Origin: Myxococcota bacterium
GTDB lineage: Bacteria > Myxococcota_A > Polyangia > Polyangiales > Houyiibacteriaceae
Direction: 5' to 3'
Assembly: GCA_028284955.1 (NCBI GenBank)
Contig: JANQQS010000101.1
Location: 1 to 48,511 of the forward strand
Length of the DNA: 48,511 nucleotides
Shown: positions 20,191 through 26,642 of the stretch, piece after piece
Layout of the letters: the number at the start of each line of letters is the position of its first letter
How positions within the stretch are numbered: the stretch's first letter is position 1
Made by a program: the position numbers and the translations under genes
The notes under the pieces: generated by a model
Seen by the model: the letters and a program-made list of their open reading frames with translations, nothing else
What the model was told of the DNA's origin: nothing
Databases searched by the model: none

Positions 20191-21525
20191 ATGACTTCAT
20201 CGACCAAGAAAAATCCTGTCAAACGCGTGGGCATTATCTTCTCTGGAGGCCCTGCACCAGCGGCCAACGCTGTGATTTCCTCGGCCGCGATTTCGTTCGT
20301 AGAGGACAATCGCGAGGTCGTTGGTTTCTTTCATGGGTATAGCAACCTCCAAGACTATCACCCCGTCAGCCATCGTTTGCTCCCCGACGAACACTATCGC
20401 ATTTTCCAAGAAAAGGATTTGCGGGGGCTTCGCAACAGCCGCGGCATTATTATCGGCACCGCGCGCGCGAATCCGGGAAAAGGAATCGAGAAACCGGCGG
20501 ACCTGCGCGACGAGAACAAAACTGCGCGACTGCGCAATATCTACAACGCGCTGGTCGATATGGAGATCGACGCGCTGATTTCCATCGGTGGTGATGACAC
20601 CCTGAAGACGGCAAACTTTCTCTACGAGTTTCAAAAAACGCTCCCTGAGACCGCGCGCCGCGTGCGCGTCGTGCATCTTCCCAAAACGATCGACAACGAC
20701 TACCGAGGCATCGACTTTACGTTTGGTTTCTTTACCGCCGTGGACTTCATGGCCAAGGAGATTCAAAACCTCCGCGCTGATGCGATTGCGACGAGCAGCT
20801 ATTTCATCGTGGAAACAATGGGGCGTAAGGCGGGATGGCTCTCGTACGGAGTGGCCATCGCGGGCGAGTCAAACCTCGTCTTGGCGGTGGAAGACGTGCG
20901 CGGCGACCTCAGCATCGAAGAGACCGTGGAAGATCCAGCCACCGGTCAGACGAAAACCGAAACACGACTGTCGATTGACGCTCTCGCGGACCGCATCGTG
21001 GATCTCATCCTTACCCGCGAACGCCGAGGAAAACACTACGGGACGGTGGTACTGGCCGAAGGTCTCGCAGAAATGCTTCCGCAAACGTTTCTCGAAGGCC
21101 TGCCGCGTGACGATCATGGTCACATTTCGCTCGGAAAAATCGATTTGGGCAAACTGCTCGCGGGGGTCGTCGGCGAGCGGTACGAGAAGAAAACCGGGCG
21201 AAAAAAGAAGCTCAGCGGGGTTCAGCTGGGTTATGAATCACGATGTGCAGTGCCTCACGCGTTCGACGTGATGCTCGGCAGCCAGCTCGGTATCGGCGCC
21301 TATCGCGCGCTGGTCGAACGGGAGCTCGATGGACACATGGTGAGTGTGAGCGGTCAGCTCGACTTGGAGTACGTGCCGTTTAGCGAGCTCGTGCACCCCG
21401 AGACGTTGGTCACCGAGGTTCGGTTCATTGAGCTCGGAAGCGATTTCCATCAGCTCGCGCGGTTTTTGGAAACCCGCACCGACAAAATTACGGATTGGAG
21501 CCCTGGCCGCCGCGAAGAGGGCTAG
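20191..21525 (+). CDS. pfp: Diphosphate-dependent phosphofructokinase (PFP)
   Basis: 444 residues from the ATG at 20191. GIIFSGGPAPAANAVISS is the N-terminal phosphate-binding loop. GGDDTLKTA (133-141) has the Asp seen in PPi-using enzymes in place of the ATP-enzyme Gly, and PKTIDNDY (K165) likewise replaces PGTIDND. The enzyme converts fructose 6-phosphate and PPi to fructose 1,6-bisphosphate reversibly. It is 57 bases after the sensor kinase and may be co-transcribed with it. Its stop codon overlaps that of lnt, tail to tail. Confidence 0.93.
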   Translation: MTSSTKKNPVKRVGIIFSGGPAPAANAVISSAAISFVEDNREVVGFFHGYSNLQDYHPVSHRLLPDEHYRIFQEKDLRGLRNSRGIIIGTARANPGKGIEKPADLRDENKTARLRNIYNALVDMEIDALISIGGDDTLKTANFLYEFQKTLPETARRVRVVHLPKTIDNDYRGIDFTFGFFTAVDFMAKEIQNLRADAIATSSYFIVETMGRKAGWLSYGVAIAGESNLVLAVEDVRGDLSIEETVEDPATGQTKTETRLSIDALADRIVDLILTRERRGKHYGTVVLAEGLAEMLPQTFLEGLPRDDHGHISLGKIDLGKLLAGVVGERYEKKTGRKKKLSGVQLGYESRCAVPHAFDVMLGSQLGIGAYRALVERELDGHMVSVSGQLDLEYVPFSELVHPETLVTEVRFIELGSDFHQLARFLETRTDKITDWSPGRREEG

Positions 21526-24104
21526 CGCTCGCGCCGAATACGCGGCCGGTTTGAGTCGAGGGCTTTGAGCTCGAACCAAGCCGTTTTTTGGTAGTAGTAT
21601 TCGACTTTGAGGCGCCCCGGGGAGACGAGCTCCAGCCACTCGTGGGCGGCGGGAATTCGGGCTCGGTGCCGAACTCGACCCGTGGCTCGGTCGATGAGGA
21701 ACAAAAAATCCGGCTCGGCGGTGAATCCGTAGCCAGATACGATGTAGCGGTCGAGTACCAAGAAAACGTTGTTGGAGGTGCGGTTTCGGCTGCGCCAGAG
21801 GACGCGCGCATTCTTCGGATCGAATGCGACGAGGCTTGAACACTGCCCACCGGCTTCGGCGGAATACGATTGGCATGCCTCGTTCCAATAGAGCACTCCG
21901 CCGACGAACCGCACGTCCTGTACCTCGAGGTGATCGTCGCGGGAGAAAAACTGATTGAGCTCGTGCGTCCAGGCGATGGACTGGTCTGGCCGGTACAGAC
22001 GCGCGTGATAGCGGCAGTTGGCGTTCGTTCCCAGCGCGCAGCTCCCGGCCCCGTAGGGTTCGCGATAGAAGGCCACGATTCCTTCGGGGGCGTTTTCGAG
22101 GAGAAAAAGCTCTGCGTTGCCCTCGGCGAGCGCCACGTACTGCGGCACGGGCGGGCCTATCCAATTTCGAACTGTCCCTGTCGATAGACCGCCATCGATG
22201 TGGGCGCGAAGGCGGCCTCGGTCGTTGTCCGTTGGTTTCTGAGGCGGATCGCGTACCACGAGTTGGTTTCCCGCGCTGCGCACACCCCGTTCCACCGATT
22301 GCGGTTCGGGCGGTTGCGGTTCGGGCGGTTGCGGTTCGGGCGGTTGCGAAGAAGCGGGGGGCACAAATTGGACTGGCCGCGGACCATCTTCGATCGGTTG
22401 CGCGGTGTCGGTCGCCGTAGCGACAGGGCTCGGCGACGCGTTGCCACGATGGCTCGGGTTGCCGCAACCGGTAGCCAGGACGGCGTTTGCGAACGCGGCG
22501 GCCACCAGCATGAGTGCAGCGTTCGGAGCAAGCAGCGGCGCTGCCGCGCGTCGCCGGAAGGCCATCGCCAAGATGGCGATGAGCCCAAGCCAACCGGGCC
22601 AATCTCCAACATGCTGGTACACCGTGGAGCCATCCAAGGCGCGCACTTGCGCGTTCAGGGTGGCGCGTTCGGAGACGCCACTATGGGTGATGACCCGGCC
22701 CACCGGATCGACGACCGCGCTGACTCCGCTGTTGGTGGCCCGAGCGAGGTATCGATGGTGTTCCACGGCGCGAAACTTGGCGAGAGCCAAATGAATCCAG
22801 GGTTCCTGCGTGTCGCCAAACCAGGCGTCGTTGGTGATGTTCACAAGCAAATGGGGATTTCCCTTGGCCACGGCTTGACGGGTGAAACCGGGCAACACGT
22901 CCTCGTAGCAGATCAGTGTGGTGATACGGTGCTCTCCAAGAGGTAGCGGGTTTTGGTGATCGCCGGGTGTGAAATGCCCGCTGTTTGGAGACCAGTCGTA
23001 CAGCACGGGAAACCAATCCCCGAAGGGCATGTATTCGCCGAACGCCAGCAAATAGGTCTTGTCGTACGTCCCAGTAATGTCGCCGTTCGCTTCCGCCATG
23101 TAAGCGGTGTTGAACTGCTGAGCGCCTTCTGGGCCTCGACGCCGCGCGAGCCCGCCGAACAACACCGGAGTATTCAAAGGCCCAATGACGCGTGCCTTGA
23201 TATTCGTGACCTGCTCGGGAAGCCCAAACATGTAGGCCGACTCGGGCCAGATGATGAGGTCGGGTTGTACGTCGCGCTCGAGCTCCAGGCTCTGCTCTAG
23301 ATGGCGGCGATGTCCTTCGAAAGGATCTTCGCGCTTGGAGAAAATGCCCATGTTGACTTGAACGAGACCGACCGTCAGCGGTTTCGCGGCGTCGCTTCGC
23401 GCATCGACCTCGGAGACCCGGTAGGCCCCGTAAGCTAGCGTAAGCGCGAGGCCTCCAAACGAAACCGCGAGCGGAAGAGTAGGCAGCGCACGACGGTCGC
23501 GGAGGGCACACATCGCTTCGAACAACGCTCCGTTGATGGCGATACCCACCGCGCTTACCAGAATCGGTCCGCCAAGATCGGCGGTCTGAATCATGTACGG
23601 GAGCTGGTGATACGCGTTGGCGAAAAAGCTTGGAAACAACGCCGGGAACGCGAGCTCGAGCCCGCATAGTCCCGCCGTCAACGCGACCCACGCGGGCCAG
23701 CCACGGTCGCGCGCGCGCCGAAAGAGCCACGCCACCGCGGTCATTTGCAACGACTGAAAAAAGAAAAAGATGGAAGCGAACGCGGCGCTCGGCACGGGGC
23801 CGTACCCCGAGAACGTCTCCAGCATGTCGACCAACCAGTAGTACCCGCCAGCGTACGACACGAAGCCGTGCACCATCCCAAGCCCCACCGTGCGAATCGG
23901 GGCGAGCTTTGCAACTCGCTCGAACGCAAGCAGCATGGGCACCAGACACACGAAACTTAGCCACCACAAACCAAAGCCGGCAAAGCTCAGAAAGTGCAGC
24001 GTTCCGCTGAGCACCACGAGCGCCACGGACAGCAGACCTTTCGCGACGTGGCGGGGCGGCTGCGCGGCTGGCTTGTGGCGATTGGCTCCCGAACGCTTAC
24101 CCAC
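21522..24104 (-). CDS. lnt: Apolipoprotein N-acyltransferase fused to a lipoprotein-like domain
   Basis: An 860-residue protein; Lnt is normally near 510-530. Residues 1-515 are a complete Lnt: membrane helices at the N-terminus, a nitrilase domain with the Glu-Lys-Cys triad E288 (IIWPES), K349 (YDKTYLLAFGEYMP) and C399 (ICYEDV), and a last helix at about 503-515. After RRR (517-519) comes a second hydrophobic segment ending LATGC (C547), which looks like a signal peptide with lipobox. QPPEP repeats (about 587-602) and a domain with quinoprotein-like repeats (FDPKNARVLWRS, IDRATGRVRHRA) follow. No stop or frameshift separates the parts. The ATG of M514 (22565) could also serve as an internal start. 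Confidence 0.93.
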   Translation of the reverse strand: MGKRSGANRHKPAAQPPRHVAKGLLSVALVVLSGTLHFLSFAGFGLWWLSFVCLVPMLLAFERVAKLAPIRTVGLGMVHGFVSYAGGYYWLVDMLETFSGYGPVPSAAFASIFFFFQSLQMTAVAWLFRRARDRGWPAWVALTAGLCGLELAFPALFPSFFANAYHQLPYMIQTADLGGPILVSAVGIAINGALFEAMCALRDRRALPTLPLAVSFGGLALTLAYGAYRVSEVDARSDAAKPLTVGLVQVNMGIFSKREDPFEGHRRHLEQSLELERDVQPDLIIWPESAYMFGLPEQVTNIKARVIGPLNTPVLFGGLARRRGPEGAQQFNTAYMAEANGDITGTYDKTYLLAFGEYMPFGDWFPVLYDWSPNSGHFTPGDHQNPLPLGEHRITTLICYEDVLPGFTRQAVAKGNPHLLVNITNDAWFGDTQEPWIHLALAKFRAVEHHRYLARATNSGVSAVVDPVGRVITHSGVSERATLNAQVRALDGSTVYQHVGDWPGWLGLIAILAMAFRRRAAAPLLAPNAALMLVAAAFANAVLATGCGNPSHRGNASPSPVATATDTAQPIEDGPRPVQFVPPASSQPPEPQPPEPQPPEPQSVERGVRSAGNQLVVRDPPQKPTDNDRGRLRAHIDGGLSTGTVRNWIGPPVPQYVALAEGNAELFLLENAPEGIVAFYREPYGAGSCALGTNANCRYHARLYRPDQSIAWTHELNQFFSRDDHLEVQDVRFVGGVLYWNEACQSYSAEAGGQCSSLVAFDPKNARVLWRSRNRTSNNVFLVLDRYIVSGYGFTAEPDFLFLIDRATGRVRHRARIPAAHEWLELVSPGRLKVEYYYQKTAWFELKALDSNRPRIRRER
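22301..22352. repeat. 15-bp tandem repeat (three and a half units)
   Basis: GCGGTTCGGGCGGTT at 22301, 22316 and 22331, plus a partial unit. On the coding strand it encodes QPPEP units in the linker after the lipobox-like site of the Lnt fusion. Confidence 0.85.
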
Positions 24105-24106
24105 GG

Positions 24107-24514
24107 CTACTTGATGCGAAGCACTTTTTTGGCTTTGCTGAGCAAGTCGCTCTGCTTGAACGGCTTGGTCAGATAGTGGCGCACACCCGCGTTGATGCCT
24201 TCGACAACATCACGCGGCCCGTCTTTCGCAGTCAGCATGATGACGGGGACTCGTCCGAGCTTTGGGTCTTTCTTCATTCGCCGCACCAGGTCGAGACCAC
24301 CCATGCGCGGCATCATCACGTCGGTGATGAGAAGATCGGGGGCACGCTCTGCTGAACGCATCAACGCGTAGGCGTCCATGCCGTCAGAGGCCGTATGCAC
24401 CGTACCGAGACCGGAGAGCATACGAGACACCATACTGAGCACGTCAGGATCGTCTTCCACAACGACGATGTTGGGGGCCCCTTTGGGGCGATCGCTGATT
24501 CTTCCGCCGGACAC
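24107..24514 (-). CDS. Single-domain response regulator (CheY-like)
   Basis: A 135-residue receiver domain with an N-terminal basic leader. The acidic pair is in VVVEDDPDV, the phospho-acceptor Asp in LLITDVMMPRMGG, Thr in IMLTAKDGP and Lys in YLTKPFKQSD. No output domain. It is 2 bases upstream of lnt and almost certainly in the same transcript. A short receiver in front of lnt is unusual; its partner kinase cannot be named. Confidence 0.9.
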   Translation of the reverse strand: MSGGRISDRPKGAPNIVVVEDDPDVLSMVSRMLSGLGTVHTASDGMDAYALMRSAERAPDLLITDVMMPRMGGLDLVRRMKKDPKLGRVPVIMLTAKDGPRDVVEGINAGVRHYLTKPFKQSDLLSKAKKVLRIK

Positions 24515-24605
24515 GGCCGATGCATAGAGCGGCTTGAGAACCGACGCAACTAGGGCTGCCCGACGGGGCGCGACCGAACGACACCAGGCAGCTTGTCCCG
24601 CCGCT

Positions 24606-25040
24606 TTAGTTCTCGATCAGCTCATGGTCGCTCGGCGCTCTTTTTTGCACGAGCACCCAGGCGCTATCGGTCGCCTGGCTGAAGAAAAAGCGCACCCACA
24701 CGTCGAGCGTGTGCGAAACAAAGTAGAACCGAAACGGAATCACTTCGTTCAGCTGCTTCTGCGCAACGCCTTTCCGAAATTTTCCCGCAAACTCCTGCAC
24801 GTCGGTACAGGGAGCGACTTGCGTAAAGAAGTTTCTTCCAAGCACTTTTTGCGGGTCGCGCCCGGACAGTTTGGCTTCGGTCGCGCTGTACTGGAGGATC
24901 GTGCCGGTAGGGCTGAGCTCGATGGCTCCGTAGGGAAGGGCGTCGAGCTCGGCCTGGGCGATGGGCGCGCCTTGTTCAAGCTTTTCCCAACCGGGGAACA
25001 GATCTTCGATGAGAACGTTGTCGCGTTTGTCGGCTGTCAT
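24606..25040 (-). CDS. Photoactive yellow protein homologue (PAS domain)
   Basis: 144 residues from the ATG at 25040, with GGGAGGT just upstream. It aligns by eye with Halorhodospira PYP at a constant offset of nine: Y51 (Y42), E55 (E46), R61 (R52) and C78 (C69, in the VAPCTD motif that binds p-coumarate). GRDPQKVLGRNFF and EFAGKFRKGV also match. T50 is Ser here (S59). The key residues for chromophore binding are therefore present. The window holds no tyrosine ammonia-lyase or p-coumaroyl-CoA ligase gene, so whether it carries a chromophore is open. Confidence 0.88.
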   Translation of the reverse strand: MTADKRDNVLIEDLFPGWEKLEQGAPIAQAELDALPYGAIELSPTGTILQYSATEAKLSGRDPQKVLGRNFFTQVAPCTDVQEFAGKFRKGVAQKQLNEVIPFRFYFVSHTLDVWVRFFFSQATDSAWVLVQKRAPSDHELIEN

Positions 25041-25175
25041 CACGATACCTCCCGTTAACCGCGCAACATAGATCGATTTTTGCAACACTGATATCGCCAT
25101 TCGGGGACCGATGCTGGCATTCCGCGACAGGGTCGCTTGACCCGATGCGCTCCGCCGATCACCATCCCGCCTGCC

Positions 25176-26642
25176 ATGACCGCTCCGCGAGTTCGCTTTG
25201 CGCCTTCGCCCACCGGTTATCTTCATATCGGGAACGCGCGCTCTGCTCTGTATGCTTGGCTATGGGCACGTCAAAAGGGGGGCGCGTTCGTGCTCCGCAT
25301 CGAAGATACCGATCGCGCCCGAAGTACGCCCGAGGCCGTGCGCGCAATCTTGGATTCGTTGCGTTGGCTGGGGCTTGATTGGGACGAAGGCCCCGAGGTC
25401 GGAGGACCGCGCGGCCCCTATTTTCAAACCGAGCGGCTTGCGTTGTACGCCGAGCACGCCGAGCGATTGATCAAGAGCGGGCACGCCTACCGATGCTACG
25501 CGACCAAGGAAGAAATCGGAGCGGCCCGAGAGGCCTACGAGGCAAGCGGCAAGAAAGGGTTTCGTTTTCATAGCCCGTGGCGCGAGCGCGACGATGGTGA
25601 CCCCAGTGAACCTCATGTGGTCCGGTTTCGCGCTCCGAATCGAGGCAAGACGCGATGGGACGATCTGATCAAGGGCACCATCGAAGTCCGTCACGACACG
25701 CTGTCTGATTTTATTCTGATTCGGTCGGACAAGACGCCGCTCTACAACTTTGGCTGCGTGGTCGACGACGTGAGCATGGGCATCAACCTGGTCGCGCGGG
25801 GAGACGACCACATGATCAACACGACGCCCCAGCTGCTGCTGTACGAAGCGCTTGGTGCGGAGCCGCCCCAGTTCGCCCACATGCCGATGATTCTCGATCC
25901 GCGCGGTCAGAAGCTCTCTAAGCGGAACTCGGCCAAACTCGCGGGAACGAAAGAATACGTTCCGATCGGGGTGCTGGAGTATCGGGATGCCGGGTACGTA
26001 CCAGACGGCGTGATCAACTACCTGGCGCGGCTCGGCTGGTCCCACGGAGACCAGGAGCTTTTTGCTCGAGAAGAGTTAATCGAAAAGTTCGATTGGTCTC
26101 AGGTCGGCGCCACGGCCGCGCGCTTCGACCGAAAAAAGTTTGAGCACGTGCAGGGCCACCACCTGCGGTTGCTGCCGGATGCAGTGCTGGTTCAGCGAGT
26201 GGCGCCGTTTCTCGAGGCCCGAGGCCTGGATGTGAATCCACAAGCGTATGCCGCTGCGGTGCCGCACGTGAAGCTTCGGGCCACCACGCTCGGCGAGCTC
26301 GCAGATGGGCTCGACTACTTCGTGCGCGACTCGGTGACGTACGAAGAGAAGGCGGCAAGGAAGTTTTTGACCACGGAGCGATCGAAAACGCTCAGTGACC
26401 TCGTCGAGGTGGTCGGGGCGGTGGAGCCGTTTGTCGCGCCGTCGCTTGAGAACGTGGTGAATCGATGGCTGGACGCTGAGGGGTTGACGATGAAGCAAGT
26501 CGCGCAGCCGGCTCGGGTCGCGCTCAGCGGTCGCAGCCGCAGCCCGGGGCTGTTTGATGTGATGGAGCTCTTGGGTCGTGAGCGGACGCTCGATCGCCTT
26601 CGCCGCGGAAGCGAGTTTGCAGCGCGGCAGCAAAACAATTAA
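25176..26642 (+). CDS. gltX: Glutamyl-tRNA synthetase
   Basis: 488 residues from the ATG at 25176, the usual length. Class I signature SPTGYLHIGNAR (HIGH region) near residues 11-22 and the KMSKS-equivalent QKLSKRNSAKLA near 245-256. FVLRIEDTDRARS is the conserved glutamate-site block. The C-terminal alpha-helical anticodon-binding domain is complete. Whether it is discriminating or also charges tRNA-Gln was not determined. Confidence 0.97.
   Translation: MTAPRVRFAPSPTGYLHIGNARSALYAWLWARQKGGAFVLRIEDTDRARSTPEAVRAILDSLRWLGLDWDEGPEVGGPRGPYFQTERLALYAEHAERLIKSGHAYRCYATKEEIGAAREAYEASGKKGFRFHSPWRERDDGDPSEPHVVRFRAPNRGKTRWDDLIKGTIEVRHDTLSDFILIRSDKTPLYNFGCVVDDVSMGINLVARGDDHMINTTPQLLLYEALGAEPPQFAHMPMILDPRGQKLSKRNSAKLAGTKEYVPIGVLEYRDAGYVPDGVINYLARLGWSHGDQELFAREELIEKFDWSQVGATAARFDRKKFEHVQGHHLRLLPDAVLVQRVAPFLEARGLDVNPQAYAAAVPHVKLRATTLGELADGLDYFVRDSVTYEEKAARKFLTTERSKTLSDLVEVVGAVEPFVAPSLENVVNRWLDAEGLTMKQVAQPARVALSGRSRSPGLFDVMELLGRERTLDRLRRGSEFAARQQNN

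Follow-up and report, generated by a model that had tools for sequence, protein, structure and literature searches.

A photoactive yellow protein homologue with an intact chromophore pocket in a Myxococcota genome in which no aromatic ammonia-lyase was found

A single-domain homologue of photoactive yellow protein (PYP) with an intact chromophore pocket is encoded in a 48,511-nucleotide stretch of DNA (the window) from a Myxococcota bacterium, in whose genome no aromatic ammonia-lyase of any kind was found. The protein is a genuine new member of a known family and, as a protein, an ordinary one, because the PYP family is already published and rich in Myxococcota. We consider it probable that it works as a blue-light sensor on p-coumarate obtained from outside the cell; chromophore binding, the source of the chromophore, the photochemistry and the signalling are steps that we infer.

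The gene lies at 24606..25040 on the minus strand, an open frame that begins with an ATG at 25040 and gives a product of 144 aa. A probable ribosome-binding site, GGGAGG, is read about 7 bases 5' of this ATG (25041..25060, minus strand), and an in-frame GTG directly 5' of the ATG is an alternative start. A longer, 206-aa version of the frame would run into the divergent gltX gene, and the conserved domain is contained in the 144-aa version. In profile searches the protein matched TIGR02373 (PYP) with 112-113 bits (E ~1e-32), which falls below the curated equivalog cut-off of 143 bits for classical PYP, a value exceeded by only one of 377 Myxococcota genomes. The protein is nevertheless PYP-like by profile, with 113 bits for TIGR02373 versus 26.5 bits for Pfam PAS. 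The solved-structure sequences that it matched best in a phmmer search of the PDB were all PYPs or PYP-derived (E ~1e-25), and judged by sequence the match is far above chance. An AlphaFold model computed from a three-sequence alignment (pLDDT 75.5, pTM 0.71) likewise found only PYPs or PYP-derived proteins among its best 40 PDB matches in a fold search, and its TM-scores against 2qj7 were 0.74 (query) and 0.86 (target).

The residues of the pocket point the same way. In an ungapped alignment with an offset of nine, Y51, E55, R61 and C78 correspond to Y42, E46, R52 and C69 of Halorhodospira halophila PYP, and the VAPCTD motif is present, both as a first, sequence-only reading of this DNA had proposed; sequence, tree and predicted fold all support that reading's identification of a PYP homologue whose chromophore pocket is intact. 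The pocket comprises Y51, E55, S59, R61, F71, V75, A76, P77 and C78, and the protein has every one of the nine residues that make up the p-coumarate pocket as published (I31, Y42, E46, F62, V66, A67, P68, C69 and F96; PMC12826048). The PYP family (PAS_PYP) as delimited by Xing et al. (2022) calls for an equivalent of Cys69 for the thioester and at least one of Tyr42 and Glu46; here C78 aligns with Cys69 without a gap, is the sole cysteine of the protein, and is accompanied by both other residues. Among the Myxococcota domains examined, C69 is kept in 61 of 62, all with E46 and either Tyr or Phe at position 42. The arginine had also been offered as evidence of a PYP, and the match itself stands, but it is not diagnostic, with Arg at position 52 in 17 of the 61 Cys69-bearing Myxococcota domains and Leu52 as the family consensus (PMC12826048).

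Compared with the H. halophila prototype (PDB 2qj7, 2phy), the window PYP is about 43% identical, likewise single-domain and alike in fold, and the two share Y42, E46, R52, C69, F62, F63, V66, A67, P68, F96 and W119. It differs at N43S, F92I and M100S, which together with D34S are departures from conserved PYP positions, and further at T50S and Y98F. Ser50 is shared with the PYP domain of R. centenum Ppr, a PYP-phytochrome-kinase fusion whereas the window PYP stands alone, and with the PYP of Salinibacter ruber; blue-shifted maxima of 432-434 nm have been reported for these Ser50 PYPs (PMC12826048). The trend of Dohmen et al. (2025) that links Ser50 with about 434 nm is based on two proteins and does not hold without exception, and the serine suggests an absorbance maximum of perhaps ~434 nm for the window PYP.

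The PYP family has been defined by Cys69, with an origin proposed in Myxococcota, and no more than some 20% of its members are captured by TIGR02373 (Xing et al. 2022; PMC9664959). Dohmen et al. (2025) counted 984 members and found that 16% of genomes have multiple PYPs (PMC12826048). In our search TIGR02373 matched at E 0.001 in 93 of 377 Myxococcota genomes, about half of the matches being strong and the remainder weak and at the level of PAS domains. A relative from the host family, G370 (L004, L063, L065, L090), carries four PYP domains, at least one of them in a 1105-aa frame, and has HAL as its sole lyase. The host genome itself has a second PYP (G000:C185:5237-5584) with Y42, E46, S50 and C69 and with Leu at position 52 (R52L). 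Since this paralogue keeps Y42, E46 and C69, and the C69 equivalent is the sole cysteine in both proteins, the thioester position is conserved across two diverged copies.

The host assembly consists of 223 contigs and is 96.6% complete. The sequence-only reading had proposed a search of the genome for tyrosine ammonia-lyase (TAL) and p-coumaroyl-CoA ligase, and when this search was run neither TAL nor a PYP-type ligase was found. The aromatic ammonia-lyase family PF00221, which takes in TAL, PAL and HAL, had no match in the 96.6% complete genome. Neither hutU nor hutI was found there, and related HAL-bearing genomes do have hutI; HAL as the source of p-coumarate was therefore rejected, all three genes being missing from the host genome as assembled. 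The dedicated p-coumaroyl-CoA ligase TIGR02372 was not found in the host genome either, its best score of 47 bits falling far short of the cut-off of 335, and the five CoA ligases that were classified resemble general acyl-CoA or o-succinylbenzoate-CoA ligases. A PYP with its own chromophore pathway would bring a lyase and a dedicated ligase, as in the pyp-pCL-TAL operon of the H. halophila type; the window PYP has no such operon, and neither enzyme was detected in its genome.

How unusual this is can be judged from the other PYP-bearing Myxococcota, for PF00221 lyases occur, one or more per genome, in all 43 of those tested. The selectivity-loop motif of these enzymes predicts the lyase substrate. 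Read in this way, a TAL-type motif occurs in 4 of the 43 genomes (G023, G135, G150 and G217), where a Tyr-His-Leu loop aligns with the His-His-Leu of PDB 2o6y, which we take to be the Rhodobacter TAL and whose PDB record is titled putative histidine ammonia-lyase. In each of the four the TAL-type gene shares a contig with a PYP, within about 10 kb, and these loci (L094 in G150, L074 in G023, L096 in G217 and L159 in G135), several of whose PYPs lie in frames of ~350 aa, are likely complete chromophore modules of Myxococcota. The remaining PYP-bearing genomes have lyases with the HAL-type Ser-His motif, and some of these genomes have an additional lyase of another type. The loops of these additional lyases include Arg-Tyr/Phe-His-Gly, and there are also paired lyases with no recognisable TAL motif; for three of the lyase pairs the fragment that was fetched ended short of the selectivity loop. 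Unusual loops (RYHGCGTG, RFHGCGTG and GHCAGVG) were seen in PF00221 lyases at L158, L161 and L156 (G144, G172 and G211) and at L164-L171, and some of these genes stand in tandem with a HAL-type gene. In the published surveys of 2022 and 2025, no more than 5-10% of PYP neighbourhoods contained TAL (PMC9664959, PMC12826048).

A missing TAL is thus normal among Myxococcota PYP carriers, and the host genome goes further in that no lyase of any kind was found. The sequence-only reading had held that missing chromophore genes would speak against a light sensor; the absence is true of TAL and of the dedicated ligase, but it makes a poor criterion, the TAL motif being rare among PYP carriers, and it does not refute light sensing because lack of TAL is the rule in PYP-bearing Myxococcota. 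What the absence leaves is uptake of p-coumarate, another route of synthesis, or a function that needs no chromophore. Given the negative lyase search of the host genome, an external source is the most likely of these, and Dohmen et al. (2025) also name uptake of p-coumarate as a possibility (PMC12826048). A general acyl-CoA ligase would activate the imported p-coumarate; p-coumaric acid would then bind Cys78 as a thioester, its phenolate held in place by Tyr51 and Glu55, and the blue-light signal would arise through the usual PYP cycle of isomerisation, proton transfer and partial unfolding.

Synthesis within the cell, by a route of the non-MIO type or by a lyase encoded in the 3-4% of the genome that the assembly lacks, appears unlikely to us, even though the assembly is fragmented and incomplete to that extent and 13 of 33 genomes of the host family do carry a lyase. 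Two pocket-intact PYPs in one genome argue for an available chromophore, but hutU and hutI are missing beside the lyase, so that an entire pathway would have to have escaped assembly, and the other 20 genomes of the family, the host included, have no PF00221 match. Most of the other lyase-less genomes of the family are small and belong to one genus, and those covered by the phylum search showed no PYP. We know of no alternative, non-lyase route to p-coumarate.

Improbable, too, is a sensor with the PYP fold that dispenses with p-coumarate and acts through its single cysteine, through another acyl or hydroxycinnamoyl-like ligand, or through protein contacts only. Such a sensor would agree with the failure to find the chromophore pathway genes (PF00221, TIGR02372, hutU and hutI) in the host genome, and some methylobacterial PYP domains have been suggested to have exchanged light sensing for redox sensing (PMC9664959). 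In those proposed redox PYPs, however, another residue stands in place of Cys69 and two cysteines have been gained, whereas the window PYP keeps C69, Y42 and E46. Sensing by a redox disulphide was rejected for the window PYP, since an intramolecular disulphide is impossible with one cysteine.

The partner of the light sensor, whichever view of the chromophore is taken, is probably not the adjacent response regulator. This single-domain regulator (24107..24514, minus strand) does lie on the same strand 91 bases downstream of the PYP gene, where the sequence-only reading had placed it as a plausible functional neighbour, and a sequence scan of the 91-base gap (24515..24605, minus strand) found no terminator-like or promoter-like site. 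Yet the closest relatives of the regulator adjoin lnt in seven other genomes of the host family, with no PYP beside the pair in flanks of mostly ~1.5 kb on each side; one further relative showed neither lnt nor PYP. The other PYP loci examined had neither this regulator nor lnt as a neighbour. On this synteny the regulator belongs with lnt (apolipoprotein N-acyltransferase; 21522..24104, minus strand) and its position by the PYP gene is probably incidental; the proposed functional link is unsupported, and a single signalling unit of PYP and regulator is very unlikely. The lnt frame of 860 aa reads as N-acyltransferase to about residue 490, followed by a PEPQPPEPQ repeat linker and a long C-terminal extension of ~250 residues with no Pfam match. 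On the other side, the divergent glutamate--tRNA ligase gene gltX (25137..26642, plus strand; coding start probably at 25176) is a neighbour only.

The second PYP is a better candidate for a signalling unit than the window locus, because a histidine-kinase gene lies 5 bases away: its stop is 5 bases 5' of the gene for a 417-aa histidine kinase, and the two likely form a PYP-kinase signalling unit (locus G000:C185:5105-6849, L062). Apart from one weak match of 29%, this kinase was not found beside the other PYP loci examined, and a conserved PYP-kinase unit of this type was rejected on that account.

In named genomes, where the search could detect only close relatives, the nearest were PYPs of two Acidobacteriaceae MAGs (L131 and L132; 53% and 48% identity). 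These are single-domain like the window PYP and identical to it in the VAPCTDVQEF stretch, and their gene neighbourhoods are unrelated to the window locus; the L132 genome has HAL, and no lyase was found in the L131 genome, which may be incomplete. A search of plasmids returned only distant PYPs of 30-40% identity. A tree built from the prototype and 60 Myxococcota domains places the window PYP on an isolated branch with weak support. That the gene is a recent foreign acquisition or contamination without function in the host would fit this branch and the acidobacterial relatives, but is highly improbable, since the contig belongs to the host lineage by its regulator-lnt pair, typical of the host family, the open frame is unbroken and no pocket residue is missing, and both the tree placement and the reach of the search are as limited as stated above.

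The interest of the window PYP thus lies in chromophore supply rather than in the protein itself. The host genome is a clean case for a question raised by the surveys of 2022 and 2025: how PYPs obtain their chromophore in genomes without TAL. The fallback offered in the literature, HAL or PAL as the source, is unavailable here because not even HAL was found, unless the assembly missed it. With two pocket-intact PYPs and no lyase, the bacterium could, as a tentative proposal, depend on p-coumarate from plants or neighbours, so that its light sensing would also report on an external metabolite, and many Myxococcota may be alike in such a dependence on external p-coumarate.
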